Assembly: GCF_016785085.1 (NCBI RefSeq)
Contig: NZ_JAENHO010000005.1
Coordinates: 434,001 to 498,000, forward strand
Reading direction: 5' to 3'
Length of the DNA: 64,000 nt
Source: Paractinoplanes lichenicola
Lineage (GTDB): Bacteria > Actinomycetota > Actinomycetes > Mycobacteriales > Micromonosporaceae
Part shown: in pieces, positions 29,450 through 44,834 of the stretch
How positions within the stretch are numbered: the first letter of the stretch is position 1
Layout: the number at the start of each line of letters is the position of its first letter
The notes under the pieces: generated by a model
Told to the model about the DNA's origin: nothing
The model's input: only the letters and a program-made list of their open reading frames with translations
Database searches by the model: none
Position numbers and translations under genes: made by a program

Positions 29450-30652
29450 ATGACCGATCCTGCCGCTCTCACGTTTGACGACTTTGCCGCCGAAACGGCT
29501 GTTCTGGGGATTTATCGGCAGGTCTTCGCCGTGTTGGCTAAAGAGGCCAACGGCATGGTCGACGATGCGGCGTCGGTGGCGGCCGATGAGGCGATCTTCA
29601 CCGCGTTCGCGGGGGCGGGGCCGGCCGGGCTGACGGTCGAGCAGGTGGTCTTCGCCTGTGGGGGACTGCCGGCCGAGCGGGTGCGGCGGCGGTTCGAGGT
29701 GTTGCGCTCCTATCGGGCGGTCACGCGGGTCAATGAGCGGCCGCACGAGATGTTTTATCAGGCGACCTTCGCGCCGTACGTGATGTTGCTCTTTCTGCGG
29801 CGGCTGTCGCAGACGGGTGGGCAGGCCGAGCTGCACCGGATGCTGTCGATGGCCCGGCTCGCGCTGGACGACGCCGAGACCACCGCGGCCGTCGTGCGGG
29901 AGCAGCTGGCCGAGATGACCACCGTGTTCCGGCTGCTCTCGAACCCGATCATGCAGCTGGCCAAGTCCGCGTCGGTGGAGTCGTTGCAGGCCCAGGCGCA
30001 GCCGCTGCTCGGCAACAGCGAGCTGCTCGACAAGGCCCGCCTCTTCCACAACGCGGCCGCCGACCGGTGGCCCGAGCTGCTGCCGGAATGCACCCGGCTG
30101 CGGATGGCCCTGGCCGCCTATCGCGACTCGCTCAACACCGCGGCCGGGCGCCTGCTCGCGCACGCGGGCAAGACCCGGGCGCTGGGGCTGCTGCCGACCG
30201 AGCGGTGGCGCACATTCGCTCGCGAGGGGAGCACCGAGGAGCTGGCCGGGGCGCTCGACGGGCTGCTCTTCGACGCGCCGGAGCCGCTGTTCACGGTGGA
30301 CGAGCTGCTCGAAGCGGTCGAGGAGGGGCTGCACGCCGAGGCGGGCCGGGTGCCGCCGCCGCGGCCGCGGACCGACGAGGAGCCGCCGGCCGCCGACCCG
30401 GACGACGACCCGCAGGTGCGTCAGCTGACGATGCGCGCCGAGGAGCTGCTGGGCGACCGGGCCGAGGCGACCGTGGCCCAGCTGCTGGCCGAGGCGGGGG
30501 ACTGGGCGGCCGGCCGCCGGGTGCTGTCCGACCTGACCGCGATCCATTTGCGAGAGGAGATCCCGTACGCCCTGACGTGGGGCGACGGCTGGCGGGTGGA
30601 CCAGGGGGCGTCGCCCACGTGGGTCAGCGAGGGCTGGTTCCGGCATGCGTGA
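29450..30652 (+). CDS. kleisin-like subunit of an SMC-type complex, uncharacterised
   Basis: A 400-residue, mostly helical cytoplasmic protein. The N-terminal region (AVLGIYRQVFAVLAKEA ... LTVEQVVFACGGLPAERVRRRFEVLRSYRAVTRV) looks like a winged helix. A long helical middle follows (ELHRMLSMARLALDDAETTAAVVREQL ... VFRLLSNPIMQLAKSASVESL), then a Pro/Asp-rich linker (about 300-325) and a C-terminal domain ending in GWFRHA. This plan resembles MukF/MksF/JetA kleisins, but the likeness is architectural; I recognise no specific family. It overlaps the next gene by 8 bases and heads the four-gene operon. Confidence 0.6.
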   Translation: MTDPAALTFDDFAAETAVLGIYRQVFAVLAKEANGMVDDAASVAADEAIFTAFAGAGPAGLTVEQVVFACGGLPAERVRRRFEVLRSYRAVTRVNERPHEMFYQATFAPYVMLLFLRRLSQTGGQAELHRMLSMARLALDDAETTAAVVREQLAEMTTVFRLLSNPIMQLAKSASVESLQAQAQPLLGNSELLDKARLFHNAAADRWPELLPECTRLRMALAAYRDSLNTAAGRLLAHAGKTRALGLLPTERWRTFAREGSTEELAGALDGLLFDAPEPLFTVDELLEAVEEGLHAEAGRVPPPRPRTDEEPPAADPDDDPQVRQLTMRAEELLGDRAEATVAQLLAEAGDWAAGRRVLSDLTAIHLREEIPYALTWGDGWRVDQGASPTWVSEGWFRHA

Positions 30653-31148
30653 CGACGACACGGCCCTGTGGTGGGCCAAGATCCGGTCGGGTGGGCCGCA
30701 GCGGGTCGCGCCCGGGGGAGCGACGCCGGGCGGGCTGCGCCGGCTCGTGGAGGCCGACGCGCAGGCCGTGTGGCTGATTCCGGAGCTGCCCGAGGGGGCC
30801 GGGCCGTCGGTGCTGGCCGAATACGGGGTGCCGGGCGCCTCGATGCTCGACAGCAAGGGCACGCTGCGGGTGTTCGCGGCCTGCCTGCGCTGCTGCTGGC
30901 CGGACCCGGCGACGGACCCGTGGCCGGGCGTGTCCGCGACCGTCGAGCAGGTCGACGAGGTGCTGCAACGCCTGGTGCCGGGTCGTAACTCGGTGAGCCG
31001 TCGCCAGCTGCTGACCGGCGCGCTGCGCAGGCTGACGGCGGCGGGGTGGCTGTTGACCGATGCGGACCGGATAAGAACGGGGCCGCGCGTCGCCTCGTAC
31101 GGGAACTTGGAATTGAGCACCCTGCGCGAGCTGTGGCGACTGATATGA
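30645..31148 (+). CDS. small winged-helix subunit of SMC-type operon
   Basis: A 167-residue protein. The first half is unclassified (ALWWAKIRSGGPQRVAPGG, VWLIPELPEGAGPSVLAEYG). The C-terminal half has VSRRQLLTGALRRLTAAGWLLTDADRIRTGPRV, a likely winged helix. It starts inside the preceding gene and its stop overlaps the next start (ATGA at 31145). In SMC complexes, small winged-helix proteins (KITE: MukE, MksE, ScpB) bind the kleisin, and this protein could fill such a role. I know of no assigned function. Confidence 0.55.
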   Translation: MRDDDTALWWAKIRSGGPQRVAPGGATPGGLRRLVEADAQAVWLIPELPEGAGPSVLAEYGVPGASMLDSKGTLRVFAACLRCCWPDPATDPWPGVSATVEQVDEVLQRLVPGRNSVSRRQLLTGALRRLTAAGWLLTDADRIRTGPRVASYGNLELSTLRELWRLI

Positions 31149-31783
31149 CGACGATCTTCGACGACGTTCTCAACTCCCTCACCGATCGGCAGCGCGAGCT
31201 CGTCGAGGCCGCGTACGCGCTGCTCGAGAACGCGACCGACCCGGTGCACCGGCAGTTCCTCCCGGCGCTGGGCGACGCCACGAGCCGCGATCGCCTGCAG
31301 GAGTTGCTCCGGCGTACGGGAAGAACGCTTGTGTCGGTGGACGGGCTGCACTTCACGTCCGGGTTCGACGACGCCGTACGGGCGGAGCTGACCGGCCTCG
31401 GCTGGCAGCCGCAGCCGCTCGTCGACCGGGCCGTGCTCGTGCTGGTGCTGGTCTACTCCGTCGCGATCCCGCGCAGCGAGGAGCAGCTCGGGCCGGACAC
31501 CTGGACCAGCCCCTACCCGGCGACCCTGCAGGACGTCCTGCGCGACAGCAAGGTGCCCGCGAGCGAGGCCCGCGCCGCCCTGGGCCGGCTCACCGCGAGC
31601 GGGCTGCTGCGCACCGTCCGGGCCGGCGACGAGCAGGACGGCGGCTACGTGCCCGGCCCCCAGTTCCACCGCCTCACCCCGGCCGCCCGCGAGCAACTGC
31701 AGGACCAGCTGATCCTGGCCGCCGCCCCCGACCACCCGCTCGCCGCAGCCATTCGCGAACGTCGTCACGGAGATCTACGTTGA
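31145..31783 (+). CDS. KITE/MksE-like winged-helix subunit of SMC-type operon
   Basis: A 212-residue protein: SLTDRQRELVEAAYALLE, a hydrophobic LVDRAVLVLVLVYSVAIPRS helix, then a winged helix (TLQDVLRDSKVPASEARAALGRLTASGLLRTVRAG) and VPGPQFHRLTPAAREQLQDQLI. The ATG overlaps the upstream stop as ATGA, and its own stop overlaps the TTG start of the ATPase gene. This layout and its position just before the SMC ATPase match MksE/JetB proteins. The assignment is structural inference. Confidence 0.55.
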   Translation: MTTIFDDVLNSLTDRQRELVEAAYALLENATDPVHRQFLPALGDATSRDRLQELLRRTGRTLVSVDGLHFTSGFDDAVRAELTGLGWQPQPLVDRAVLVLVLVYSVAIPRSEEQLGPDTWTSPYPATLQDVLRDSKVPASEARAALGRLTASGLLRTVRAGDEQDGGYVPGPQFHRLTPAAREQLQDQLILAAAPDHPLAAAIRERRHGDLR

Positions 31784-34737
31784 CCACCACCCCCACCGAC
31801 GGACCGGCCGAGGACATCGTCGGGTCGCGGGTCCTCGCCGGCGTCCAGATGGTCAACATCTCGCGCCTGTCGACCCACCCCGTGCCGATCACCGCGCGCG
31901 GGCTGATCACCGTGGCCGGGCAGGGGCCGTCCGACTCGAACGGCGCCGGCAAGTCGTCGTTCATCGCCGGGCTGAGCCTGCTGCACGCCGACGAGCAGTG
32001 GCGGCCGCAGTCGGGCGCGCAGGCGGCGGCCGAGCTGCTCTTCACGGCCGAGCTCGCCGGTCAGGAGTCGATGCACGCCAACGCCGACCGCGGCTACATC
32101 ATCGGCGTCTTCGTGCCCCCGGCCGCCCAGACCGTGGCCGAGCTCGAGGCGGACGCGCTGACCGTCTGGCTGCGGGTCAACCGGCAGAGCCCGCACGTCG
32201 AGCTGCGCTGGGCCGAGCGGCTGCACGTCCCGTACGGGGAAACCGAGAATGAACGGGCGGGCGGCGCCGATGCCTTGTGGGACCTGCTGCCGAAGGCCAA
32301 CGGCCGCTCCGATCTGCGCGCCAACCGCCTGGCCCGGACCCTGTACGGCTCGACCGTGCGCTGCGTGTCGTTCCTGTCGACCTCGGTGCGGGCCAGTCTG
32401 ACCGCGAACCTGCTGGCCCAGCCGCTCAACGAGCTCTCGCCGGAACGGATCTTCGACGCGGTCGGCGCGCTGACCGGCCTGACCCGCGAGATCGAGCTGG
32501 AGCAGAGGGCCCGCGCCCAGGAGTACGAGCAGGCCGCCAAGGCCGAGAGCGCGCAGGCCGAGTACGAGCTGTGGGACGGCCGGATGCGGGTCGTCGAGCA
32601 GGGCATCGCCGACCGGCAACGGGCCCGCCTGCTGCTGGCCGAGGCCGAGGACAGTTGGCGCGGCCGGTGCGCGCGCTACCTGATCGACGGCGTGCACGAG
32701 GCCGACCGGCTGGCCACCGCGGCGGCGGCCCAGGAGGCCCGGCTGGACGAGCTGGACATGCAGGTCGCGGCGGCCGGCGAGGAGGTCGAGCGGCTCTCCG
32801 ACGACCAGGCGTTCGAGGCGAGCGGGCGGGCGCGGATCACCGCGTACGAGGAGCTCAAGGTCGTCGAGAAGGCGCTGCACGACGAGCACAGCCAGAACGT
32901 CGGCGCGGTGGAGACCCTCGGCGACCAGCTGCGCCGGCTGCGGGAGGAGGCGGGGGCGGCCGACGGCCGTACGGTGGCGCAGGCGGAGACCGAGGTCGCG
33001 CTGGCCGAGGAGCGGATCCGGACGGCGCAACGGATCAAGGGGCGGACCGAGCACGCGATAGCGAAGAAACGCGAAAACGCCCAGGTGCGGCTGCTGCGGG
33101 AACACGGGATCGCGGCCGTCCCGCTGGTGGACGCCCTCGCGTTGACCGAGGACGAGCGCGAGGTCTGGGCGGCTCGGCTGGTGCCCTACCGCCACGCCGT
33201 GGTGGCCCCGCCGGAGGCGCTTCCCCTGCTGGCCGCGCTGCCGGGATCGCTGCTGGTCGAGGACGTGGACGGCTTCCGGGCCGCCCTGGCCGACCGGGCG
33301 GGCAAGGACGGGAACATCGACACCCTGGCCGGCGTGCACGGCGTGGCCGGCCCTCCGGAGGTGCTGGCCGGACGAGTCGAGGCCGCCCGCGCCGAGCTGG
33401 AACGGGCCGTCGCCGAGGACGAGGCGGCCGACCGCGAGGCCGAGGAGGCCCAGCGGGCCAAGACCCGGGCCGAGGAGCACCTGCGCGGCGCGCGGGCCGA
33501 GGACGAGGCGGCCCGGGTGCAGCAGGCGATCATCCGGCTGCGTGCGCGCAACGCGGCCGTCGACCGCGAGCTCGACGACCTGGCCGGCCCGCTGCGCTCG
33601 ACCCGAGACGGCTACGAGGCCGCGCTGGGCGAACGCAACGCGCGGGCCCGGCAGGTCGAGGCCGCGACGACCGTGCTGGCCAACCTCAAGAAGGAGCGTG
33701 AGGCCGCCCGCGCCCGGTGGTCGGAGCTGCGCGACCAGCGGACCGCCCTCGACCTGCCCCGGCTGCACGCGGCGTGGGCGGGCACGGTCGAATCGGCCGA
33801 GCAGCACCTGCTCGCCCTCGACGAGCCGGAGCAGCGGCGGGCGCCGGCCGAGTGGGACGACCTGTGCGCGCAGCGGGCCGGCGACGCACGGGCGGCCTGC
33901 TTTCCGCCCGGCGACCCCGAGCAGAACCGGCCCGAGGAGCTGCGGGTGGTCGACGAGCAGCGCCGCGACCGCCGCTCGTCCGCGTACGTCCAGCTCGTGC
34001 CGGACGTGCTGCGGATCGTGGGCGGCTTCCTGACCGAGCACGAGCGCGTCGACCGCGACAACGCCACCCAGATCCAGTCGGAGCGGGCGGCCAAGACCAT
34101 GACCCTGCGCGGGGCCCAGGCCGCCCTGGAGGAGGCGCGGCTGGCCTCCGAGGCGCTGCGGGCCACCACGGCCACGGCCATCCGGACGAAGCTGCGGCAG
34201 GTGTCCGAGGAGTTCGACCGGCTCGACCAGACGTACGGGGGATATGGCGGCAGCCTCGACTTCCCCGAGCCCGAGGCGCCGGCCGACCCGAAGAAGCCGT
34301 GGCAGTGGACGATCACCCCGCGCTGGCGCCGCGGCGAGGGCAAGCCGCCGTCGTCGTACCGGCTGCGGGGCAACACGGCCCAGATGGACGACAAGGCGGT
34401 CAAGCTCGTCTGCGCCGCCGCGCTGGCCGGCGCCCAGGACCGGCCGCTGATGCTCGTGCTCGACGAGCTGGGCCGCAACCTCGGCTCGGCGCACCGCCGG
34501 GACGCGGTCGCGCTGTTCGAGAACATCGGCCGCGACCGGGCCATCAGCGTGGTCGGCGCCCTGCAGGACGACATGGAGCGCTACGCGATCGGCGCCTCCA
34601 GCCTCTACATCAAGCTGCGCCGGCCCTCCGACGTCCAGCCCTACAACCAGGCCCCGGTCGTCATCGGCAGCGAGGCCGACGCGGCCCGCGTACAACTGCT
34701 CTCGGAGTGGATGAGTTCCTTCAGGATAGTCCGCTAG
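31780..34737 (+). CDS. SMC/MukB-like coiled-coil ATPase
   Basis: A 985-residue ATPase from a TTG start (GGAG 7 nt upstream; TTGA overlap). The P-loop at residues 49-60 reads GPSDSNGAGKSS, three residues longer than the common GPNGAGKS. Coiled coils (about 215-430 and 515-820) flank a globular middle (about 440-510) that could be a hinge. A signature-like MDDKAVKLVCAAALAGA lies near 865-882, and Walker B PLMLVLDELG puts Asp895 and Glu896. Head-coil-hinge-coil-head order identifies an SMC-like protein. With its three small partners it may act on DNA topology, plasmid or phage defence, or chromosome organisation. No nuclease gene accompanies it. Confidence 0.75.
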   Translation: MTTTPTDGPAEDIVGSRVLAGVQMVNISRLSTHPVPITARGLITVAGQGPSDSNGAGKSSFIAGLSLLHADEQWRPQSGAQAAAELLFTAELAGQESMHANADRGYIIGVFVPPAAQTVAELEADALTVWLRVNRQSPHVELRWAERLHVPYGETENERAGGADALWDLLPKANGRSDLRANRLARTLYGSTVRCVSFLSTSVRASLTANLLAQPLNELSPERIFDAVGALTGLTREIELEQRARAQEYEQAAKAESAQAEYELWDGRMRVVEQGIADRQRARLLLAEAEDSWRGRCARYLIDGVHEADRLATAAAAQEARLDELDMQVAAAGEEVERLSDDQAFEASGRARITAYEELKVVEKALHDEHSQNVGAVETLGDQLRRLREEAGAADGRTVAQAETEVALAEERIRTAQRIKGRTEHAIAKKRENAQVRLLREHGIAAVPLVDALALTEDEREVWAARLVPYRHAVVAPPEALPLLAALPGSLLVEDVDGFRAALADRAGKDGNIDTLAGVHGVAGPPEVLAGRVEAARAELERAVAEDEAADREAEEAQRAKTRAEEHLRGARAEDEAARVQQAIIRLRARNAAVDRELDDLAGPLRSTRDGYEAALGERNARARQVEAATTVLANLKKEREAARARWSELRDQRTALDLPRLHAAWAGTVESAEQHLLALDEPEQRRAPAEWDDLCAQRAGDARAACFPPGDPEQNRPEELRVVDEQRRDRRSSAYVQLVPDVLRIVGGFLTEHERVDRDNATQIQSERAAKTMTLRGAQAALEEARLASEALRATTATAIRTKLRQVSEEFDRLDQTYGGYGGSLDFPEPEAPADPKKPWQWTITPRWRRGEGKPPSSYRLRGNTAQMDDKAVKLVCAAALAGAQDRPLMLVLDELGRNLGSAHRRDAVALFENIGRDRAISVVGALQDDMERYAIGASSLYIKLRRPSDVQPYNQAPVVIGSEADAARVQLLSEWMSSFRIVR

Positions 34738-34762
34738 CAGATCATCTGTTACAGTCGGAGGC

Positions 34763-36157
34763 ATGAGTCCTTCGACCGATGAGCGACGCATGGGTGCCCT
34801 CGCGGTGCTGTGCGCGATGTCCCTGATGATCGTTCTCGACAGCACGATCGTCGCCGTGGCCGTCCCCGACATCCAGCGCGACCTCGGCTTCACCGAGGCC
34901 GGAGTGTCCTGGGTGGTCAACGGCTATCTGGTCGCCTTCGCGGGCCTGCTCCTGCTGGCCGGCCGGCTCGGCGACCTGGTCGGGGCGTGGCGGGTCTTCC
35001 TGGCCGGGCTGACCCTGTTCACGGTGGCCAGCCTGCTCTGCGGGTTCGCGACCACGGCCGGCCTGCTCATCGCGGGCCGTTTCGTGCAGGGCGCGGGCGG
35101 CGCGCTGGCCGCGGCCGTCGTCATCGGCATGATCGTGCGGTTGTTCCCCGAGCCCGAGGCGCAGGCCCGCGCGATGGGCATCTACAGCTTCACCCAGGCC
35201 GGCGGGGCGGCTGCCGGTTTCGTGCTGGGCGGCCTGCTGACCGACGCGCTCGGCTGGCCCGTCATCTTCCTGATCAACGCGCCGATCGGCGTCGCCGTGT
35301 GGTTCTTCGGCCGCCGCCTGCTGCCCCGCGAGACCGGCCTCGGCCTGGGCCGCGGGCTCGACGTGCCGGGCGCCCTGCTGATCACCTCGGGCCTCTCACT
35401 CGGGGTGTACGCAATCATCCAGGCCTCGATCCCCGCCGCGGCCGTGGCCGTCCTGCTGATCGCGGGCTTCCTGGTGCGGCAACGACTGGCGAGCCACCCG
35501 CTCATCCCGCTGCGGATCCTGAGCCGCCGCTGGCTGCTGACCGCGAGCGCCGCCGTCGTGCTGGTCTTCGCCACCGGCATGGGCTTCCAGTTCATGAACG
35601 CCCTGTTCGTGCAGCGAGTGATGGGCTACGACGCGCTCGGCACCGGCCTGGCCTTCCTGCCCACCCCGATCGTCATCGGTCTCGTCTCCCTCTTCGCCGC
35701 GCCCCGCCTGACCGGCCGCTTCGGCCCCCGCCCGGTGCTGATGGCCGGCCTGACCCTGCTGGTCGGCGGTCTGCTGCTGCTCTGGCGCCTGCCGGTCGAG
35801 CCGTCCTACGCGACCCACATGCTGCCCGCCCTGATCGTCATGGGTCTCGGCGTCGGCGTCACCGTCCCGTCGATCATCATGCTGGCCATGGCCGGCGCCG
35901 CCCCCGCCGACACCGGCGTCGTCTCGGGCTTCATCAACACCGCGCAACAGGCCGGGGGCGCGCTCGGCCTCTCGGTGCTGGCCGCGCTGGCCGCCTCCCG
36001 CGCCGGCGGTTCATCAGTGACGGCCCTGCACGCCGGCTACACGCTCGCGTTCCTGGTGGCGGCCGGTTTCGTGCTCACCGCCCTGCTGATCACGACGTTC
36101 CTGTTGAAAACCAAAGATTCCGTACGCCACGTCGAGGCCTCAACCGCATTGGGTTAG
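34763..36157 (+). CDS. MFS drug exporter, DHA2 (EmrB/QacA) family
   Basis: A 464-residue, about 14-segment transporter. It has DSTIVAVAVPDIQRDLGF in the first helix and loop (the D-x-TIVNVALP motif of DHA2), LAGRLGDLVGAWRVFLAG in loop 2, GRFVQGAGGAL, and the helix-5 motif AGFVLGGLLTDALGWPVIF-like segment. It likely expels hydrophobic drugs by proton antiport. TACAGT at about 34751 and GGAGG just before ATG 34763 suggest its own promoter with a very short leader. No adjacent regulator. It is 25 nt after the SMC gene, so read-through is possible. Confidence 0.86.
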   Translation: MSPSTDERRMGALAVLCAMSLMIVLDSTIVAVAVPDIQRDLGFTEAGVSWVVNGYLVAFAGLLLLAGRLGDLVGAWRVFLAGLTLFTVASLLCGFATTAGLLIAGRFVQGAGGALAAAVVIGMIVRLFPEPEAQARAMGIYSFTQAGGAAAGFVLGGLLTDALGWPVIFLINAPIGVAVWFFGRRLLPRETGLGLGRGLDVPGALLITSGLSLGVYAIIQASIPAAAVAVLLIAGFLVRQRLASHPLIPLRILSRRWLLTASAAVVLVFATGMGFQFMNALFVQRVMGYDALGTGLAFLPTPIVIGLVSLFAAPRLTGRFGPRPVLMAGLTLLVGGLLLLWRLPVEPSYATHMLPALIVMGLGVGVTVPSIIMLAMAGAAPADTGVVSGFINTAQQAGGALGLSVLAALAASRAGGSSVTALHAGYTLAFLVAAGFVLTALLITTFLLKTKDSVRHVEASTALG

Positions 36158-36207
36158 AACGCGAGGCTCCCCGCGGCCCGGGTGGGTGGTCACGGCCGGA
36201 GCGCGCG

Positions 36208-36224
36208 ACCGGGATGTTCCCGGT
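36208..36224. terminator. hairpin between MFS and hicA
   Basis: ACCGGGA and TCCCGGT around a TGT loop; GTGGGTG (about 36182) and CACCCAC (about 36228) can extend it as an outer stem. It lies between convergent genes. Nothing else is recognisable in 36158-36331. Confidence 0.5.
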
Positions 36225-36331
36225 GGTCACCCACGACCCCCCGGATCGCCTAAGCGCGAGGGCCTTCCACGTGTTCAAGTAGGCGGGGCGCTTGGTGGGT
36301 GGTCAGCGCCAGCATCGAGAGTCCGGGTGTC

Positions 36332-36556
36332 CTATCGAAGCAACTGCAGGAACTCGGTTGCGGTGAGGCCGGCCTGGCGAAGAATCGAGGCGAGCGTCCC
36401 GCGCTTGATCGTCGAGTGCTGGGGAACTATGACAACCCTGCCGTTTGGGTGTTGGTAAACGGCATGGCTGCCCTTGGTACGGACGTGGGCGAAGCCGGCC
36501 TTGATGAGAGCGTTGACGACCTTGCGGAGAGGGAGATCGGCGAGCGCAGGGCTCAT
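36332..36556 (-). CDS. hicA: HicA-type toxin (mRNA interferase)
   Basis: A 74-residue dsRBD-fold protein: PLRKVVNALIKAGF, then TKGSHAVYQHPNGR with the catalytic His31, then VIVPQHSTIKRGTLASILRQAGL. All HicA landmarks are present and the length is normal, so it looks intact. Family members cleave mRNA in a translation-independent way. ATG 36556 overlaps the hicB stop, so the antitoxin is made first. It is in the accessory block, near the end of the MFS gene on the other strand. Confidence 0.88.
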   Translation of the reverse strand: MSPALADLPLRKVVNALIKAGFAHVRTKGSHAVYQHPNGRVVIVPQHSTIKRGTLASILRQAGLTATEFLQLLR

Positions 36557-36765
36557 GCCGCCGAAGCGATCTGGAACGACGTGACGAACGGGGTCGACTC
36601 GATCTGTGGGCGGGAGACCTGTTCCAAGTACAGCTCGACCGCCTCACGAAGGTTCGCCAGCGCTTCCTCGAGTGACTCTCCCTGGCTGGCCACGTCGAGT
36701 TCCAGGCACCGCGCGACGTACCAGTCATCTTCCTGATGGACTGCTGCGGTCAGCGTTCGGGTCAT
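36553..36765 (-). CDS. hicB: HicB-type antitoxin
   Basis: A 70-residue protein matching the HicB core: LTAAVHQEDDWYVARCLELDVASQGESLEEALANLREAVELYL, a partially degraded RNase H fold that occludes HicA. There is no C-terminal DNA-binding (HTH or RHH) domain, so autoregulation may depend on another protein or be absent. Antitoxin-first order and the ATGA overlap with hicA are typical. The gap 36766-36921 upstream holds its promoter (TAGGTA-like hexamer near 36797) and nothing else I recognise. Confidence 0.87.
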   Translation of the reverse strand: MTRTLTAAVHQEDDWYVARCLELDVASQGESLEEALANLREAVELYLEQVSRPQIESTPFVTSFQIASAA

Positions 36766-36921
36766 CGGTGTCTCCCGCGGGCTCTGGCTGGTGTACCTAT
36801 CTTATGCGAGAGTCGGCAGTTCTCAGCCTCACGAGCACGGAGCGCAGGCCGCCGGCGCGGAAGTCCCGGAGTTTCACGCGAGCTCTGGCGATCGTCACGA
36901 GACGCTATCGGAGAGGTGGCG

Positions 36922-38115
36922 TCAGAACGCCGGGTGGGACGAGGCGGGCGCGGTGTGCGGGGTGGCTCGCAGAGCGATCAGCGCGGCGGTGACGCTCGCG
37001 ACGGCGGTGACGGCCAAGGGCACGACGGCGCCGATGTGGATGGCGGCCGCGCCCAGCGGGATGCCGAGGGCCACCGGCCCGAACATGACCGTGGTGGAGG
37101 TGGCCGCGACCCGGCCCAGCAGGTGGTCGGGCGTCAGCGTCTGCACGGCGGTCAGCGCGGCGATCAGGGTCCAGGGCAGCCCGACGCCGATCACCACACT
37201 GCCGGCGACCATCGCGGGGAACCAGGGCAGCGCCTGTGAGACGCACCCGGCGGCGAAGACCACGGCACCGATGGCGGCCACGGTGATCGCGCTGCGGCGG
37301 GCCAGGATGCGACCGGCGATCAGACCACCGGCGATCGAGCCCGCGCCCTGAGCCGTGCCGAGAAAGCCCAGGTGGGTGGCCGGCAGGTGCAGATCGTGTA
37401 CGAGATGGGCGAGCACCGCGGCGTCCTTGAGCCCGGACCCACCGATCGCGACGGCCGCCAGCAGCACCGGGTTCCGCACGGCGGGCACGCTGAACAGGGC
37501 CCGCAACCCGTCTCGCAGCCCTGACCGGGCGCCGGCGACGGGCTGCTGCGGCGGGACCTCAGCGGCGGGCCGCAACCGGACGGCCGCGTAGCAGGCGGCC
37601 GTCAGCAACGGCATGGCCGCGCTGAGCAACACCACCGCCATCGGCCCGTGCCAGGCATACAGCGCCGCCCCCGCCACCGGTGCGATCAGTTTTGTGCCCT
37701 CCTGGGCGCTCGAGCGCCAGCCGTTGACGTCGCCCAGCATCGACGCGGGTAGCGCGGACGGCATGATGGCCGACTCCCCGGCCTCGATCAGCACGTAACT
37801 GGCGCCGCGGGCCAGGAGGACGGCGAAGATGAGCCAGGCCGCCGACGCCGAGCGGACGGCCAGCAGCGTGAGCAGGAGCAGGCCGAGGCCCAGGTCGACG
37901 CCGATCACCAGGGGGCGGCGGGGCAGCCGGTCGACCAGTGCGCCCAGCCACGGGGCGGCCAGCGTCGGCGCGTAGATGCACACGGCGGTCAGGGCGGCCA
38001 GGCTCACCGAACCGGTCAGGTCGAGCACCCAGAGGCCCGCGGCGAGGGTCATCGTGGTGCTGCCGAAGCCGGACAGCAGCGAGATCAGCACGAACAGGAC
38101 CGCGTTGCGCCGCAT
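36922..38115 (-). CDS. MFS transporter
   Basis: A 397-residue, 12-segment major facilitator protein from ATG 38115 with GGAGG 5 nt upstream. Loop 2/3 reads GALVDRLPRRPLVIGVD; other segments include LARGASYVLIEAGESAIMPSAL and GRVAATSTTVMFGPVALGIPLG. It resembles exporters of the MFS_3/tetracycline-macrolide kind. An ORF extends 22 codons further upstream but without a ribosome site. The HTH regulator gene lies 62 nt upstream on the same strand, so the pair may be one operon under the palindromic operator. The substrate is unknown. Confidence 0.82.
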   Translation of the reverse strand: MRRNAVLFVLISLLSGFGSTTMTLAAGLWVLDLTGSVSLAALTAVCIYAPTLAAPWLGALVDRLPRRPLVIGVDLGLGLLLLTLLAVRSASAAWLIFAVLLARGASYVLIEAGESAIMPSALPASMLGDVNGWRSSAQEGTKLIAPVAGAALYAWHGPMAVVLLSAAMPLLTAACYAAVRLRPAAEVPPQQPVAGARSGLRDGLRALFSVPAVRNPVLLAAVAIGGSGLKDAAVLAHLVHDLHLPATHLGFLGTAQGAGSIAGGLIAGRILARRSAITVAAIGAVVFAAGCVSQALPWFPAMVAGSVVIGVGLPWTLIAALTAVQTLTPDHLLGRVAATSTTVMFGPVALGIPLGAAAIHIGAVVPLAVTAVASVTAALIALRATPHTAPASSHPAF

Positions 38116-38135
38116 GACGCCTCCGAAGCAGGTTG

Positions 38136-38147
38136 AGTCGTGAGAAC
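38136..38147. promoter_or_regulatory. small palindrome upstream of MFS gene
   Basis: GTGAG-AA-CTCAC (approximate position) within the 62-base gap between the HTH gene and the MFS gene, flanked by two GTTGAGT copies. It could be an operator for the exporter. Confidence 0.3.
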
Positions 38148-38177
38148 TCACATACTTCAGAGTTGAGTGTCCATCTG

Positions 38178-38654
38178 TCAACGTTCCGGTGACGCGGCCT
38201 CCAATGCTTTCCGTAGGCGGTCGACGGCCGCCCGGGTGGGGGCGGGCAGCGCGGCGGACACGTCGGCGAGGTCGGCGATCACGGCCTCGGCCAGGGCGAA
38301 GAGAGCGCCGCCGGTCGCGCCGGGCACCGCGGCGAGGGTCTCGCGGACCAGCACGGCGCGGGTGAAGCGGCGGTCCCAGCGGCGGTCGGCTCCGACGCGT
38401 CGGTGCAGCTCAAGGGCCGCTCGCCGCAGAGAGTCGAAGTCTTTCCCGTACGCATCGGCGACCACCGGCTGCACGGCGGCGACCAGGCGTAGCCGGCGCT
38501 GCTCCGCGGCCTGGCGGCTGCCCAGACCGAGCGCGGCGGCGATCTCGCCCCAGGTCGCGCCGTCGCGCCGGGCCCGGTCGATCAGCTCGAGCTCCTGGAC
38601 GTCGAGCCGGGCCCGCGCGGCGGGAATGGTCCGCAAGTCGTCGAGGTCAGCCAC
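38178..38654 (-). CDS. HTH regulator, HSP18-regulator-like
   Basis: A 158-residue protein with an N-terminal helix (VQELELIDRARRDG), an HTH (ATWGEIAAALGLGSRQAAEQRRLRL), and a C-terminal helical region. This matches actinobacterial proteins annotated as HSP18 (RheA-like) regulators in my recollection; binding of a heat-shock promoter is not shown here. GTG 38654 is 6 nt from TACACT (38661-38666), suggesting a leaderless mRNA. The 29-bp palindrome overlapping its promoter suggests self-repression. It probably controls the MFS gene directly downstream. Confidence 0.65.
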   Translation of the reverse strand: MADLDDLRTIPAARARLDVQELELIDRARRDGATWGEIAAALGLGSRQAAEQRRLRLVAAVQPVVADAYGKDFDSLRRAALELHRRVGADRRWDRRFTRAVLVRETLAAVPGATGGALFALAEAVIADLADVSAALPAPTRAAVDRLRKALEAASPER

Positions 38655-38660
38655 GGACTC

Positions 38661-38666
38661 AGTGTA
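38661..38666 (-). promoter_or_regulatory. -10 hexamer for leaderless HTH gene
   Basis: TACACT read on the minus strand, six bases before GTG 38654. Confidence 0.4.
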
Positions 38667-38668
38667 GG

Positions 38669-38697
38669 GACTATGTCAATGATTCGTTGACATAGTC
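38669..38697. promoter_or_regulatory. large palindromic operator
   Basis: GACTATGTCAA (38669-38679) and TTGACATAGTC (38687-38697) are perfect 11-base inverted repeats with a 7-base spacer. It covers the -35 region of the HTH gene and the 3' coding end of the cupin gene. AT-rich and unlike the surroundings, it is most likely the binding site of the HTH protein. Confidence 0.7.
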
Positions 38698-39026
38698 GGG
38701 CCCAGAGTGCTGGAGCCGGCGGCCGATTCCTTGAGTTCGACGAAGACGCAATGCGTAGGCGTGTCACCGACATTCTCGCCGGAGTGCTCCTGGGCGCCGA
38801 CCCAGCGCACTGCACCGGCCGGAAGCGCCACGTCGACCGACCGCGACCCGTCGCTGATCCGGCGGCGGAAAGCGCCCAGCGTGTACATGACCGTGTCGGG
38901 GTGGTGGTGCGGATGGGTGCGGTCCCCGGGGTGGTCGCGATATTCCAGCACGCGGACCCGGTCGTTCTCGAAGACCACGCGGTAGAGCTCGGGATCGGTG
39001 ACAGCAGGGTCGTCGTAGCCGCTCAT
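38676..39026 (-). CDS. small cupin-domain protein
   Basis: A 116-residue single cupin from ATG 39026 (GTG 39035 is an alternative, nearer to the AAGGCGGG). Segments are DPELYRVVFENDRVRVLEYRD, the metal-binding THPHHHPDTVMYTL and GAVRWVGAQEHSGENVGDTPTHCVFVEL. The histidine cluster suggests a bound metal. Relatives are generic cytoplasmic cupins without a fixed reaction. It is divergent from the TetR gene; its last codons lie inside the palindromic operator of the HTH gene. Confidence 0.75.
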   Translation of the reverse strand: MSGYDDPAVTDPELYRVVFENDRVRVLEYRDHPGDRTHPHHHPDTVMYTLGAFRRRISDGSRSVDVALPAGAVRWVGAQEHSGENVGDTPTHCVFVELKESAAGSSTLGPTMSTNH

Positions 39027-39051
39027 GAGGGTCACCCGCCTTTATGGGACT

Positions 39052-39097
39052 CCAATACCATGGGATGACGGTACCATTACGATGATGTCAATACCAT
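39052..39097. promoter_or_regulatory. TetR/cupin divergent control region with CAATACCAT repeats
   Basis: CAATACCAT occurs at about 39052-39060 and at 39089-39097 in the same orientation, with another TACCAT (39072-39077) between. The last acts as the -10 of the TetR gene. Repeats this close to both starts suggest TetR binding sites. Confidence 0.4.
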
Positions 39098-39702
39098 ATG
39101 AGGCGAGCGGCCGCGTCGAGCAGAAGACCCGCACCCGGCAGGCCCTGGTCGAGGCCGCGCGGGAGCTGTTGGCCGGGGGGTCGACGCCGAGGGTCGAGGA
39201 CGCGGCCGTGCGGGCTCGGATCAGCCGTACGACGGCGTACCGCTACTTCGCCAACCAGCGTTCGCTCCTGCTCGCCGCCCAGCCTCAAATGCAGCCCGAC
39301 ACGCTGCTCCCCCCGGACGCGCCCCGCGAGCCACGGGCCCGGCTGGCCGCGTTCATGAGCGGCTTCGCCGCCTACAACCTGCGGTGGGAACCCCAGCTGC
39401 GCTCGGCCCTGCGGCTTTCGCTGGAAGATGCCACGGCCGAACGCCCGCTGCTGCGGCGGGGCCGGGCGATCGGCTGGATCGAGGACGCGTTGGCGCCCCT
39501 GGCGAACGACCATCCGCACGTCGACCGGCACGCGCTGGCGGTCGCCATCCGGTCGGCGACGGGGATCGAGTCGCTGATCTGGCTGATGGACATCGCCGGT
39601 CAGACCCGCGACGAGGCCGCCACAACAGTACGGGGAACCGCTCTTGCCCTCCTCGACGCGGCGCTCGCAGCGACCGGGGACGCGGCAGCCGCAGCAACCT
39701 GA
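39082..39702 (+). CDS. TetR-family transcriptional regulator
   Basis: A 206-residue protein. The N-terminal HTH (TRQALVEAARELLAGGSTPRVEDAAVRARISRTTAYRYFANQRSLL) is typical TetR, with the recognition helix at SRTTAYRYF. The C-terminal ligand domain is helical and ends in low-complexity Ala. Two ATGs (39082, 39085) are possible; 39085 lies 7 nt after TACCAT and may be leaderless. Divergent from the cupin gene, which is the likely target. The 3' end is 7 bases from the endonuclease IV stop on the other strand. Confidence 0.85.
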   Translation: MMSIPYEASGRVEQKTRTRQALVEAARELLAGGSTPRVEDAAVRARISRTTAYRYFANQRSLLLAAQPQMQPDTLLPPDAPREPRARLAAFMSGFAAYNLRWEPQLRSALRLSLEDATAERPLLRRGRAIGWIEDALAPLANDHPHVDRHALAVAIRSATGIESLIWLMDIAGQTRDEAATTVRGTALALLDAALAATGDAAAAAT

Positions 39703-39709
39703 GAAGCGG

Positions 39710-40570
39710 CTAACGCAGCGACTTGAGCAGGGCGATATCGGCCGCGTGGCCCTCGTGCTCCACCGACGGCGTCTCGACGATCACGGGCACGCCGGCCGTG
39801 GCCGGGTGGGTCATCAGCTCGGCGAACGCGGCCGTCCCGATGCGCCCGGCGCCGATCGTCTCGTGACGGTCGCGGGTGGAGCCGCAGTCGTCCTTCGAGT
39901 CGTTCGCGTGGATCAGTTTGAGGCGGTCGCGGCCGACCGTGGCGATCAGCGCGTCCAGCGTCGCCGTCATGCCGCCCGGGGTGGCCAGGTCGTGGCCGGC
40001 GGCCCAGGCGTGGCACGTGTCGAAGCAGACGCCCAGGCCGGGATGATTTTCCACCGCGTCCAGGTAGCGCTCGAGTTCCTGCACCTTGGAGGCCAGGCTG
40101 CGCCCGCCCCCGGCGCTCGGCTCGACCAGCAGCTGGGGCAGGCCGGGCCGTTCCAGCAGCGGCAGCAGCGCCTCGTGCAGCTGGTGGAACGCCTTGTCCT
40201 CGTGCGCCTCGTCGACCGAGCTGCCGGCGTGGAAGACCACCGCGGTCGCCCCGATGGCCTGGCCCCGTTCGAGCGCGTGGGCCAGCACGGCCGCCGACTT
40301 CTCGACCGTGAGCTCGGTCGGTGAGCCCAGATTCACGAGCAGGGAGGCGTGGATGTACGCCGGGATCTCGCGCTCGCCGATGCCGTCGCGGAACAGCACG
40401 TCCTGCTTCGGGTCGCCGGGCGGCATGGCCCAGCCGCGCGAGTTCGAGACGTACACCTGCAGCGTCTCGGACCCGGCGGCGTCCACGTAGGGCAGGGCGG
40501 CCTTGGCCAGCCCGCCCGACGTCTTGGTGTGTGAGCCGATCCGGCGGTCGGGAGAAGAGCCTAGAAGCAC
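39710..40570 (-). CDS. nfo: endonuclease IV (AP endonuclease, deoxyribonuclease IV)
   Basis: A 286-residue TIM-barrel zinc enzyme from GTG 40570. Metal-site segments are all present: RIGSHTKTSGG, YIHASLLVNLGS, VVFHAGSSVD, LLVEPSAGGG, VCFDTCHAWAAGHD, LKLIHANDSKDDCGSTRDRHETIGAGRIG and VIVETPS. It cuts DNA 5' to abasic sites in base-excision repair. The start lies 10 bases inside the 3' end of the kinase gene, so the two are translationally coupled. The longer upstream reading has no family likeness. Confidence 0.92.
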   Translation of the reverse strand: MLLGSSPDRRIGSHTKTSGGLAKAALPYVDAAGSETLQVYVSNSRGWAMPPGDPKQDVLFRDGIGEREIPAYIHASLLVNLGSPTELTVEKSAAVLAHALERGQAIGATAVVFHAGSSVDEAHEDKAFHQLHEALLPLLERPGLPQLLVEPSAGGGRSLASKVQELERYLDAVENHPGLGVCFDTCHAWAAGHDLATPGGMTATLDALIATVGRDRLKLIHANDSKDDCGSTRDRHETIGAGRIGTAAFAELMTHPATAGVPVIVETPSVEHEGHAADIALLKSLR

Positions 40571-42507
40571 TGGATGGCGACCTCGGTCTGCGGCGGCACC
40601 TGGGTGTTTCCGCCGGGCTGCTGGCTGCGGACGATGGCGTTGGCGTTGAAGTCGACCCGGACGCGCAGGTTCATCCCCTCCAGCGTGGCCTTGGCCTGCT
40701 GGCACGGCTGGTTGGTCAGGTCGGGCACGGTGACCAGCGGCGGGCCCTTGCTGACGTCGAGCGTGACCGTGTCGTCCTTGGTCGCGCCCGTGTTCGGCTT
40801 CGGGTTCTGCCCGATGACCGTGTCGGCCGGCTGGTCGCTGTCCTTGTAGACCTCGGCCGCGGTCAGGCCCAGGTTGGCCAGCTCGGTGCGGGCGTCGTTG
40901 ATGTTCTTGCCGGACAGGTCGGGCACCCGGATCGGGGCACGGCCCTTGCTGAGCACGACGGTGATCGTCGAGCCCCGCTTGAGCTGCGTGCCCGTCTTGG
41001 GGTCGGAGGCGATGACCGCACCCTCGGGCACGGTGTCGCTGTATTGCCCCGCGCCCTCCTTGAGCTTGAGGTTGAGCTGCTCGAGCTCGCCCCGCGCGGC
41101 CGTCAGCTCGAGGCCGGACAGGTCGGGCACGGCGAAGCGCTCGGGGCCGAGCGACAGGTTGACCGTGAGGACGCCGCCCTTGACGATCCGCTCATTGGCC
41201 GGCGGATCCTGCGAGACGACCGTGTCCTTGGCGACCGTCTCGCTGTAGGCGCCGTCGCCGTAGAAGAGCTCGAACCCGTTCTGCTGCGCGTACAGCTCGG
41301 CCTGGGCCTTGGTCATGTTGACCATGGGCGGCGAGTCGGTGTAGCGCCCGAGGGTGACCCACCACGTGCTGCCGATGACCACCAGCACCATCACGGCAAC
41401 GGCCGCGCTGAGCAGGATGCGGCGCCGGTCGGTGCCGCCGCGCAGCGAGCGCGACTTCGACCGGGGCATGCGGCCCGCGGTGTATTCCTGGCCGCGGGGG
41501 GCCTGGTTGGGCAGGCGGGCCCAGTTCGGACGATCGCCGACGCCGACCGCGGGCACCACGGTGGTGGCATCGGTGATGGCGCCGCGCGCGGGCGGCACCT
41601 GGCGCAGCAGCGCGGTCTCGACGTTCGCCGCGCCCAGGTCGTCGCGGACCGTCTGCACCTCGGCCAGCAGCGCGCCGGCGTCGGTGGGGCGGGCCCCCGG
41701 GTCGCGGCGGGTGGCGCGGGCGGTCAGGTCGTCGAGCACCGAGGGCAGGCCCTTGACGATGCTGGACGGGGCCGGGACGTCGTTGTCGACGTGCTCCCAG
41801 GCGACCGCGACCGGGTCGTCGCCGTCGAACGGCACCCGGCCGGTGAGCATCTCGAACAGCACGATGCCGGCCGAATACACATCCGTACGGGCGTCGGCGT
41901 GACCCTCGGTGACCAGCTCGGGCGCGACGTAGGCGACGGTGGCCATCAGCTGGCCGCCCTCGTCGGCGCTGCTCGCCTCGACGGCGCGGGCCAGCCCGAA
42001 GTCGGCCACCTTGACGACGGAGTCGACCAGGTTGGCCACGCCGCCGCTGGGCGCCTCGGCCACCAGCACGTTCTCGGGCTTGACGTCACGGTGCACGAGG
42101 CCGGCGCGGTGGGCGGCGGCGATCGCGGCGAGCATCTGCTCGAGGATCGCCAGCGCCTCCACCGGGTTGAGCCGGCGGCGCTGGGTCAGCAGGTCGCGCA
42201 GCGTGCGGCCCTGCACGTACTCCATGACCAGATAGGGCAGGCCCTGGTGGCGGCCCTGGTCGTACACGGCGACGACGTTGGGATGGGTGAGCCGGGCGAT
42301 CGTCTTGGCCTCGTCGGTGAACCGGTCGACGAAGTGGGCATTGGTCGCCTGCGACGGGTGAATGATCTTCAGAGCGACGGTGCGTTCGAGTCGTTCGTCG
42401 GTGGCGGTGTAGACGGTTGCCATGCCACCACGGGCCACGCGACCGGTGATCCGGTAGCGGCCGTCAATCGTCGTGCCGATCAACGTGTCGGCGACTGTGG
42501 TGTCCAT
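40561..42507 (-). CDS. pknL: Ser/Thr protein kinase with four PASTA domains (PknL-like)
   Basis: A 648-residue membrane kinase. The kinase domain (about residues 17-280) has ARGGMATVY, ATP-binding K47, HRDVKPENVLV (Asp141) and DFGLA (169-173); all catalytic residues are present. A linker, one membrane helix (about 370-390) and four extracellular PASTA repeats follow; the last ends in QCF. Such kinases sense muropeptides or lipid II. The nearby Rv2175c-like gene, a known PknL substrate in M. tuberculosis, supports the name. TACACT at 42516-42521 (minus) lies 8 nt before ATG 42507. Confidence 0.9.
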   Translation of the reverse strand: MDTTVADTLIGTTIDGRYRITGRVARGGMATVYTATDERLERTVALKIIHPSQATNAHFVDRFTDEAKTIARLTHPNVVAVYDQGRHQGLPYLVMEYVQGRTLRDLLTQRRRLNPVEALAILEQMLAAIAAAHRAGLVHRDVKPENVLVAEAPSGGVANLVDSVVKVADFGLARAVEASSADEGGQLMATVAYVAPELVTEGHADARTDVYSAGIVLFEMLTGRVPFDGDDPVAVAWEHVDNDVPAPSSIVKGLPSVLDDLTARATRRDPGARPTDAGALLAEVQTVRDDLGAANVETALLRQVPPARGAITDATTVVPAVGVGDRPNWARLPNQAPRGQEYTAGRMPRSKSRSLRGGTDRRRILLSAAVAVMVLVVIGSTWWVTLGRYTDSPPMVNMTKAQAELYAQQNGFELFYGDGAYSETVAKDTVVSQDPPANERIVKGGVLTVNLSLGPERFAVPDLSGLELTAARGELEQLNLKLKEGAGQYSDTVPEGAVIASDPKTGTQLKRGSTITVVLSKGRAPIRVPDLSGKNINDARTELANLGLTAAEVYKDSDQPADTVIGQNPKPNTGATKDDTVTLDVSKGPPLVTVPDLTNQPCQQAKATLEGMNLRVRVDFNANAIVRSQQPGGNTQVPPQTEVAIQCF

Positions 42508-42621
42508 CGGCGTGAAGTGTATGTGGCTTTCGCTTGGGGGCAGCCCAGGATGTCACAGCTGAGTCCAAACGGGTACGACCAAGCCCCGTACGCGGCCGGA
42601 TCTGCCCCGGCAAAAGCGGAT

Positions 42622-43338
42622 TTAGTGGTTCCTCTTGTGGCGTCGGCCATGCCACGACTGGCTCGGCGAGACGGAGTTGCCCGGGCTCGCGGAGTCGCTC
42701 GGGGACGGGCCGGGACTGCCCGGATCGGACGAATCCGGCGAGGACGGTGACGGCGAGGTCGTCGGCGAGGGCGACGAGGTGGGGGCCGTCGGCGTCGGCA
42801 CGGGCGGCTTGCCATGGCTTTCCGGATTTGTCGGCTTAGTGGACCGGATCGGAGTGTTCGCAGGTGGCGGTGGAGGCGGCGGCGCCTCGACCGCGCGCGG
42901 CGGGGCCGGATCCGTCGGCACGGGAGCGGGCGCGGCGGGAACGGTCGCCGCCGTGGTGGCGGGCGGAACCCGTACGGGGGAAGCCGACGACCCCATGCCC
43001 ACGGCGGTGGTCGCGGCGGCGCGCGGCGGGGAGGTGCCGGCCGCGGCCGTGGTCTCCGACACGAGCGAGCCCAGCCCGTTCACGACGGCCAGGTAGGCCC
43101 CGGCCGCACCGGCCACGGTCAACGTCGCGAAGGCGGTCACCGCGAGCGCGCGGCGCGGCCGGCGGGCCACCGGGGCGGGCGCCGGGTCGATCGGCAGGTC
43201 GATGCCGAAGGTGCCCATCCCGGTCGAGGTCATGTCGGGCCCACCGGCGGGCGGTTCGGCCGGCGTGCGGCCCATGTCGTAGCGCAGCGAACGCCACGCG
43301 CCGGCGACCTCCGTACGGGTCCTGCGCAGCAGGCTCAT
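42622..43338 (-). CDS. single-pass membrane protein with long Pro/Ser/Thr-rich tail
   Basis: A 238-residue protein from ATG 43338 (AAGGA upstream). A cytoplasmic N-terminus (MSLLRRTRTEVAGAWRSLRYD) is followed by one membrane helix (ALAVTAFATLTVAGAAGAYLAVV, about residues 68-90). An extracellular tail then follows, of Pro, Ala, Thr and Ser with runs of Pro and SPSP-type repeats, ending in a basic HGRRHKRNH. It lies between pknL and the Rv2175c-like gene, divergent from the latter. Possibly a cell-wall-spanning anchor or a kinase substrate; no family recognised. Confidence 0.6.
   Translation of the reverse strand: MSLLRRTRTEVAGAWRSLRYDMGRTPAEPPAGGPDMTSTGMGTFGIDLPIDPAPAPVARRPRRALAVTAFATLTVAGAAGAYLAVVNGLGSLVSETTAAAGTSPPRAAATTAVGMGSSASPVRVPPATTAATVPAAPAPVPTDPAPPRAVEAPPPPPPPANTPIRSTKPTNPESHGKPPVPTPTAPTSSPSPTTSPSPSSPDSSDPGSPGPSPSDSASPGNSVSPSQSWHGRRHKRNH
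42823..42832 (+). repeat. CGGATTTGTC decamer, relative of the AT-rich repeat
   Basis: Shares 10 bases with the repeat copy at 12005-12025. It lies inside the proline-rich protein gene. Confidence 0.25.
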
Positions 43339-43359
43339 CGGGTTCCTTCTCCGCTCTCG

Positions 43360-43365
43360 TACGCT
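43360..43365 (+). promoter_or_regulatory. -10 hexamer for leaderless Rv2175c-like gene
   Basis: TACGCT, six bases, then GTG 43372. Confidence 0.45.
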
Positions 43366-43371
43366 GTAGGG

Positions 43372-43722
43372 GTGAGCGATTCCGTAACCGCCGGCCCGGC
43401 CGAGTGGATCAACCTGCCGGACGTGTCGGCGAAGCTCGACGTGTCGATCAGCAAGGTCCACCAGATGATTCGCGACGGGCACCTGCTCGCCGTGCGCCGT
43501 GACGGCATCCGCGTGGTCCCGGCCGACCTGGTGGCCAACAGCACGGTGCTGAAGCACCTCCCCGGCGTCCTGAACTTGCTGCGCGACGCCGGGTATAACG
43601 ACGAAGAGGCCCTCCGGTGGCTGTACGAGCCGGACGAGGCGCTCGACGGGAACGCGGCGAAGGGCCTCGGCGGGCATCGCGCCCGCGAGGTGAAGAGGCG
43701 CGCTCAGGCGCTGGGTTTCTAA
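43372..43722 (+). CDS. Rv2175c-like DNA-binding protein
   Basis: A 116-residue protein. The N-terminal half is a winged helix of excisionase/MerR type (EWINLPDVSAKLDVSISKVHQMIRDGHLLAVRRDGIRVVPADL). The C-terminal half is the conserved LPGVLNLLRDAGYNDEEALRWLYEPDEAL and ends in HRAREVKRRAQALGF, closely following M. tuberculosis Rv2175c. Rv2175c is phosphorylated by PknL, which weakens its DNA binding. The Thr/Ser-rich head here (SDSVTAGPAE) could hold the phosphosite. Convergent with the polyprenyl synthase gene. Confidence 0.86.
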   Translation: MSDSVTAGPAEWINLPDVSAKLDVSISKVHQMIRDGHLLAVRRDGIRVVPADLVANSTVLKHLPGVLNLLRDAGYNDEEALRWLYEPDEALDGNAAKGLGGHRAREVKRRAQALGF

Positions 43723-43727
43723 GAGCC

Positions 43728-44795
43728 TCAGACCGTACGGCGGGTCGCGGCGTCGGCCAGGCGGTGCAGCACGTCGCGCGCCTCCGGCTCGACCGGCGCG
43801 CCGTCCAGGGCCGCCAGCGAGGTCGTCATCAGCTCGTCGATGCGGCGCTCGGTGGCGGCCAGCGCCCCGCTGTCGCGGATCAGGGCCCGCAGCCGCTGCA
43901 CGCCGGCGTCGTCGAGGCCCTGATCGCCCAGCCCGGCGTCGAGCTCCGCGCTCTCCTTCTCGCCCAGGGCCGCGAACGCCGCCGCCACGAGATAGGTGCG
44001 CTTGCCCTCGCGCAGGTCGTCGCCGGCGGGCTTGCCGGTGCGCTCCGGGTCGCCGAACACGCCCAGCACGTCGTCGCGCAGCTGGAACGCCTCGCCCAGC
44101 GGCAGGCCGAAACCCGAATAGGCCGCGGAGACGGCGGCGCTCGCCCCGGCCAATGCCGCGCCCAGCAGCAGCGGGCGCTCGACCGTGTATTTCGCCGACT
44201 TGAACCGGGCGACCTTGCCGGCCCGCTCGAGCGACGTGTCGGCCGTGGCCTGGGTCAGCACGTCGAGATATTGCCCGACGGTGACCTCCGTACGCATCTC
44301 GTCGAAGACCGGCCGGGCCCGGGTGAGCTCGACCGCCCCGACCCCCGAGGTGTGCAGCAGCTCGTCCGACCAGACCAGGGCCAGGTCGCCCAGCAGCACG
44401 GCCGCGCTGTCGCCGAAGGCCGCCGCCCCGCCCCGCCAGCCCGACGCCGTGTGCCGCGCCTCGAACCGCCGGTGCACCGAGGGCTCGCCGCGCCGGGTGT
44501 CCGACCGGTCCATCAGGTCGTCGTGGATCAGCGCGCTGGCCTGCACCAGTTCGAGCGCCGCGAGCGCGGAGACGACCTGCTCGGAGTCGGCGCCGCCGGC
44601 CCCGCGGAAGCCCCAGTAGGCGAACGCCGGGCGCAGCCGCTTGCCGCCCTTGAGCACCAGATCCTCGACCGCCTCGGCCACGGGGACCAGCGCCGGGTCG
44701 ATCCCGGTGAGGCGGGCGCGCTGCTCACCGAGGAAGGCGGCGAGCGCCTTGTCGACGCGGGCGCGCAGGTCGGCGGCATCCAGGGGCGAGGTCAC
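43728..44795 (-). CDS. idsA2: polyprenyl (geranylgeranyl-type) diphosphate synthase
   Basis: A 355-residue trans-prenyltransferase: GGKRLRPAFAYW, the first aspartate motif DDLMD (about residues 92-96), and a second DDVLGVFGD region. The residues before the first motif are A-L-I-H, so chain length is not obvious; GGPP is likely. Gene order (next to metF and the Rv2175c gene) matches M. tuberculosis idsA2 (Rv2173). It could feed the carotenoid genes 13 kb away. GTG 44795 is 7 nt after TAGCGT on the minus strand. Confidence 0.88.
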   Translation of the reverse strand: MTSPLDAADLRARVDKALAAFLGEQRARLTGIDPALVPVAEAVEDLVLKGGKRLRPAFAYWGFRGAGGADSEQVVSALAALELVQASALIHDDLMDRSDTRRGEPSVHRRFEARHTASGWRGGAAAFGDSAAVLLGDLALVWSDELLHTSGVGAVELTRARPVFDEMRTEVTVGQYLDVLTQATADTSLERAGKVARFKSAKYTVERPLLLGAALAGASAAVSAAYSGFGLPLGEAFQLRDDVLGVFGDPERTGKPAGDDLREGKRTYLVAAAFAALGEKESAELDAGLGDQGLDDAGVQRLRALIRDSGALAATERRIDELMTTSLAALDGAPVEPEARDVLHRLADAATRRTV

Positions 44796-44802
44796 CGCAC
44801 GA

Positions 44803-44828
44803 ACGCTAGCGGACGACCTCGGTAGAGT
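44803..44828. promoter_or_regulatory. divergent leaderless promoters of idsA2 and metF
   Basis: TAGCGT on the minus strand (44803-44808) is 7 nt before GTG 44795, and TAGAGT on the plus strand (44823-44828) is 6 nt before GTG 44835. The two -10 boxes are only 14 bases apart, so the -35 regions overlap the opposite promoter. Confidence 0.5.
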
Positions 44829-44834
44829 GACGGT

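Follow-up and report, generated by a model that had tools for sequence, protein, structure and literature searches.

Four overlapping genes of Paractinoplanes lichenicola, named here A, B, C and D, raise the question of what an ATPase resembling the structural maintenance of chromosomes (SMC) proteins does where no nuclease gene accompanies it. The genes lie on the forward (+) strand of a 64,000-nucleotide stretch of a 10.67-Mb genome (contig NZ_JAENHO010000005.1, positions 434,001 to 498,000), referred to as a whole as the window. An earlier note on this DNA had described a distinct relative of SMC-kleisin-KITE complexes that has a pair of winged-helix partners and lacks a Toprim-type JetD/MksG gene. 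The account that we favour, and to which we give about an even chance, is that the operon encodes an SMC motor of a new lineage, similar to Wadjet (JetABCD/MksBEFG/EptABCD) and MksBEF, with an exchangeable payload, and that this copy is payload-free and acts on DNA architecture.

Conservation of the four-gene unit

The operon spans 29450-34737 (+), with successive overlaps of 8, 4 and 4 bases, in agreement with the span, gene lengths and overlaps given in that note. Its parts are:

29450..30652, + strand: gene A, 400 residues, candidate kleisin in the MukF/JetA position, first gene of the conserved unit
30645..31148, + strand: gene B, 167 residues, an additional small subunit that contains the motif RCCW
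31145..31783, + strand: gene C, 212 residues counted from the ATG, candidate KITE subunit (weak winged-helix matches)
31780..34737, + strand: gene D, SMC-like ATPase of 985 residues with a TTG start
31918..31959, + strand: Walker A motif of D, GQGPSDSNGAGKSS
34366..34389, + strand: ABC signature position in D, NTAQ, against SGGQ in aligned type I JetC
34447..34479, + strand: Walker B motif of D, LMLVLDELGRN
34722..34762, + strand: junction between the end of D (FRIVR-stop) and the region upstream of a major facilitator superfamily (MFS) gene

The longest open reading frame (ORF) of gene C begins farther upstream, at 31046, and gene B has no counterpart in the four-gene Wadjet operons examined.

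Relatives of D were detected in 9/150 genomes of the window's family, 15/298 of its order and 24/216 of its class; these counts overlap and each takes in the window's own genome. One genome in the order-level count (G263) was later removed as false, and 18 of the 24 class-level relatives are strong, the six weak ones (E above 1e-7) being left aside. The locus set comprised 41 loci with D, some of them partial, two of which (L031 and L032) may be halves of one gene; L061 was removed from it as false. Recognisable A, B, C and D stood in this order at 33 of the 41, while four far relatives (L029, L030, L058 and L059) had A, C and D and, at the position of B, an ORF of similar size that has diverged and matches B only weakly (22% probability). 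The remaining four loci (L032, L060, L148 and L149) are fragments or are cut by contig ends. Because 33 loci are complete and in order and four more hold the diverged B-sized ORF, the A-B-C-D unit is not due to chance, and the co-occurrence of the four genes in other genomes bears out the earlier note's treatment of them as a unit. Profile comparison also showed A, C and D of far and near relatives to be clearly homologous (99.6-100% probability). The closest relative was found in Paractinoplanes ovalisporus (L022; the best segment of D matches at 85%).

No relative was found in phages or, in one scan, in viral_contigs, and the single relative in plasmids belongs to an 11.85-Mb Nonomuraea record labelled plasmid. 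Broken relatives were L055 (frameshifts, in an incomplete draft), L056 (frameshift, transposase in D) and L149 (a fragment); L062 and L145-L148 are not counted as broken, their D pieces sharing one frame. In L056, which carries the kinase form, a DDE transposase ORF (L056:10359-11141) lies inside D immediately ahead of Walker B; C of this copy has a frameshift.

A putative exchangeable payload gene

At seven of the 41 loci (L023, L025, L026, L050, L030, L059 and the fragment L149), a JetD-like Toprim gene directly follows D. The PADLOC JetD1 model was matched by six of 10 payload proteins (E limit 1; presumably the six nuclease forms, the matching members not being named), with an E-value of 4.9e-11 for the L023 protein, which is also above the Pfam thresholds of DUF2399 and JetD_C. 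Residues E, D and D of the Toprim pattern E..DxD are invariant in all six nuclease forms. Four further loci (L028, L056, L058 and L029) carry a different form, in which a protein kinase domain comes after a related N-terminal domain. The three that were scanned (L028, L058 and L029) match Pkinase at E 1e-30 to 3e-27; in L029 the gene is divergent and upstream of A. All four kinase forms, once aligned, display what we take to be the glycine loop, lysine, HRD and DWG motifs. The link between the two payloads is their N-terminal domain: identity between the L026 nuclease and the L028 kinase form reaches 49.7% across 143 N-terminal residues, and profiles built from six nuclease and three kinase rows matched at 99.3%. 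In profile comparison, the nuclease N-terminal domain alone had no match to JetD.

Neither payload was seen at the other 30 loci, the window included, although one of these (L031) stops 5 bp after D and is thus uninformative. Elsewhere in the window's genome, PF09983 was not found, with a positive control in C. glutamicum, though this family alone could miss some of the nucleases, and a search with the L023 nuclease as query, made without a positive control, also found none. The window's own kinase gene (40561-42507) was rejected as a payload, its kinase domain alone being matched. The absence of a nuclease described in the earlier note stands for this locus, as do the distinct SMC-like operon and its two small partners, but it is not a trait of the family, given seven nuclease-bearing and four kinase-bearing loci.

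Probable loss of the nuclease

In an unrooted tree of D (quick method, no mixture model; 38 rows, six under half filled), the window and L022 are sister to the nuclease-bearing L023 with a support of 100. Within the eight-row clade that contains them, L023, L025, L026 and L050 have the nuclease (52-71% identical in pairwise tblastn) and the window, L022, L024 and L027 have none; payload state changes six times in all on the tree. Where the nuclease is present, D ends PEPQT-stop (L023, L026 and L050) or KTEA-stop (L025) and in each case overlaps the ATGA or GTGA start of the nuclease. Where it is absent, D ends RPPT in L022 and RPEPLP in L027, both with GTGA retained, and FRIVR in the window, where it runs directly into the MFS upstream region. 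These remnants at the end of D favour loss. Given the identity among the four nucleases, our reading is that the nuclease was inherited in the eight-row clade and then lost three times, and the nuclease-free state of the window looks secondary.

Among 23 other genomes of the same genus with the threonine aldolase that precedes the operon, 20 loci were read, and of the 21 same-genus loci (these 20 and L022) only L022 has A-D at this site. L194 shares the flanks (85.6% along 430 bp and 84.6% along 442) but has 583 unalignable bases in the operon's place, and in G056, also of this genus, the operon occurs in a different gene context (L024).

The ATPase and its partners

Both the Walker A (GP..SNG.GK) and the Walker B (DE.G.N) motifs, already recognised in the earlier note, are invariant in 30 aligned full-length D proteins, Walker A having one additional residue in four far relatives. 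The ABC signature position reads NTA[QE] in all 30, against SGGQ in JetC. The profile of the N-terminal head matched type I JetC at 53% over 50 columns and SbcC at 60% over 39, both largely around the P-loop, and the type III set at 45% over only 13 columns; parts that do not match score 0.05-0.5%. This part of D is, on profile grounds, an SMC/Rad50-like head. For the C-terminal head all matches were weak (canonical SMC 16%, type III 8%, type I JetC 3%, SbcC 0.8%). The hinge of the head-coil-hinge-coil-head layout proposed for D did not show up on its own: the 69% profile match of D to JetC sits in the coil/hinge region, and the hinge alone scores 1.2%.

None of the window's A, B, C and D rose above a family cut-off in Pfam or NCBIfam, where matches were sub-threshold only, and none of the four matched PADLOC at E up to 1; gene A in particular had no convincing family match. 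The C-terminal winged helices ascribed to B and C fared unequally, with no Pfam match for B of the window, L027 or L030 and weak TrmB matches in nine of 23 members for C (best E 0.011). PDB sequences, searched with D and A and with profiles built for D, A, C and the nuclease, held no specific relative; what D matched there were transporter ATPases and coiled coils, some designed and some natural, at E 0.0009 or worse.

Selection and co-occurrence with canonical SMC

The ratio of nonsynonymous to synonymous substitution rates (dN/dS, NG86) between the window and L022 was 0.19 for A, 0.25 for B, 0.18 for C and 0.23 for D, compared with 0.167 for the neighbouring threonine aldolase and 0.105 for the neighbouring DAHP synthase; two D pairs within genus g150 gave 0.105 and 0.159. 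YN00 gave 0.05 for A and no value for most pairs. A-D are under purifying selection.

Genus g150 has D in 12/12 genomes, and 12 loci of its family (10 from g150 and two from g172) show no payload and largely shared flanking genes. Canonical SMC was above the cut-off in eight of nine carriers tested, the window's genome included, and a conserved D with a canonical SMC alongside fits a second, payload-free SMC motor. The single-contig genome G537 (g150), which has A-D, had no canonical SMC above the cut-off, possibly through a masking or search artefact; a synteny search for its smc found no syntenic block in 380 kb of 5.59 Mb.

Genomic context

As the earlier note had it, the operon lies between a threonine aldolase (PF01212, upstream) and an MFS pump (PF07690, downstream). 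Compared with L022, L195 and L196, the gene block that follows it (34763-45752) appears both inverted and rearranged, and one breakpoint of this block seems to fall at the end of D. At two other loci, which sit on far branches of the D tree, the operon is immediately preceded by a helicase fragment, SbcD and SbcC (L025:44-5452 and L059:19-4967). SbcC is 33% and SbcD 41% identical, and the arrangement suggests a recurrent larger cassette. The partial D of L060, at a contig end, has a ThiF/E1-like gene nearby, together with a gene weakly resembling prokaryotic E2 (L060:5042-6927).

Comparison with known systems

The yardsticks were a type I and a type III Wadjet operon (L084 and L096), recognised as such by PADLOC, with their relatives; the small gene of L096 was unmatched. 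Among 56 profile pairs, scores above 10% came from D-JetC (69 and 13%) and nuclease-JetD (13-61%) alone. The family shares with Wadjet an SMC-like ATPase, a compact operon, small partners and, at the seven loci above, a JetD-like Toprim gene directly after the ATPase. However, the window locus lacks that nuclease, D is shorter (985-1072 residues against about 1130-1510 for the type I and III JetC examined) and has NTA instead of the SGGQ signature, and two small genes separate A from D, whereas L084 and L096 consist of JetA, one small gene, JetC and JetD. Moreover, the window's A-D match no PADLOC Jet model, and the payload may be a kinase or absent; among 18 D proteins, up to five weakly matched one JetC3 model, and the best JetC E-value was 0.0001. 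One further locus (L092:1907-10003) has an ORF of 1544 residues upstream of a JetD gene, in an order unlike types I and III, and is possibly another Wadjet layout.

With MukBEF and MksBEF, the window's operon shares an SMC motor without a nuclease at the locus (and none found in the genome), and the family shares presence throughout one genus. It differs in its extra subunit, in that no Muk family is among the Pfam or NCBIfam matches of A-D, and in the canonical SMC that most carriers tested also have. Lamassu likewise pairs an SMC-like ATPase with a variable effector, according to part of a review (PMC10586767), but there the variation is on LmuA and here on a JetD-type protein; no LmuA was identified, the window's A-D matching no PADLOC model. 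Identification of D as LmuB was considered, as 10 of 18 D proteins match that model (best 9.3e-10), and was rejected as unspecific because type I JetC matches the same model over its coil (4.5e-10).

Wadjet types I-III are named in a portion of the same review (PMC10586767), and Wadjet occurs in 42% of Actinobacteria according to extracts of PMC10482375, consulted along with those of PMC10123090. In open-access PMC literature, preprints excluded, none of the papers checked contained 'type IV Wadjet', 'Wadjet type IV' or 'novel Wadjet', no paper was found to pair JetABCD with 'threonine kinase', and the top-listed titles and abstract openings showed no kinase-bearing Wadjet. No match to an already characterised system was found.

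A proposed payload-free motor and its alternatives

In the account that we favour, two D proteins would make up the ATPase, A (kleisin-like) would close the ring, and C (KITE-like) and B would bind at the heads; the motor would probably extrude DNA loops. Relatives may load a payload, either the JetD-like Toprim nuclease or the protein kinase, through the common N-terminal docking domain, and loss of the nuclease in the window's lineage would leave a payload-free motor, most likely acting on chromosome or plasmid architecture. MksBEF of Pseudomonas aeruginosa is a precedent for such a role without a payload in part of a review (PMC10586767).

Several observations weigh against this account. 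The patchy distribution of D in the window's own family is more like that of an accessory or defence gene, and in the eight-row clade three gains cost the same as three losses, so that unrooted counts are undecided between them. The dN/dS values between the window and L022 may take in time before the nuclease was lost. AlphaFold models of A and C, built from two-row alignments (window and L022 only), reached a predicted local distance difference test (pLDDT) score of 48 and 47, and fold searches with these poor models gave no match at E 0.001 or better; for gene A, MukF appeared at rank 46 (E 3.0). Profile comparison detected no likeness of A and C to JetA and JetB, which is uninformative because the method misses known JetA/JetB pairs (type I against type III: JetC and JetD 93%, JetA 0.2%, JetB 1.2%).

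The operon could still serve defence: the motor, without a payload, might capture or silence small DNA circles, or call on an unrelated effector whose gene lies elsewhere. Its patchiness in the family, its absence from this site in 20/20 other same-genus loci read (of 23) and the existence of nuclease and kinase relatives would suit such a role. We nevertheless judge it unlikely, as no JetD_C match or L023-type nuclease was found in the genome, the two immediate neighbours encode a threonine aldolase and an MFS pump (defence genes were not looked for in the rest of the window), and all 12 genomes of g150 have D, while the 10 flanks read there lack a payload.

It is very doubtful that the operon is what remains of a nuclease-bearing system in decay: its four reading frames and the motifs of D are intact and dN/dS is 0.18-0.25 beside the low values of the neighbouring genes, even though the nuclease gene is absent, the D tail is changed at the junction and a few relatives are broken. 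Equally improbable is a Rad50/RecN-like repair ATPase operon that forms no SMC-kleisin complex, for although the N-terminal head of D is as near SbcC as JetC and two loci adjoin sbcDC and a helicase fragment, its C-terminal head is farther from SbcC than from canonical SMC or either JetC type (all weak), and relatives have a JetD-like partner gene.

Returning to the motor with an exchangeable payload, we tentatively propose, with slightly less than even confidence, a new class of SMC machine in which one docking domain brings either a Toprim nuclease or a kinase, so that sensing of small DNA circles would trigger cutting or a phosphorylation signal, and in which copies without a payload, once domesticated, would serve as a second condensin next to canonical SMC. 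Section 7 of a review (PMC10586767) contains the speculation that MukBEF and MksBEF derive from Wadjet-like defence systems. With nuclease-bearing and nuclease-free states in close relatives, and a kinase form in addition, the transition from defence to chromosome folding can be tested directly within one clade, and a kinase payload on an SMC motor, if true, would be a new output for the sensing of DNA shape.

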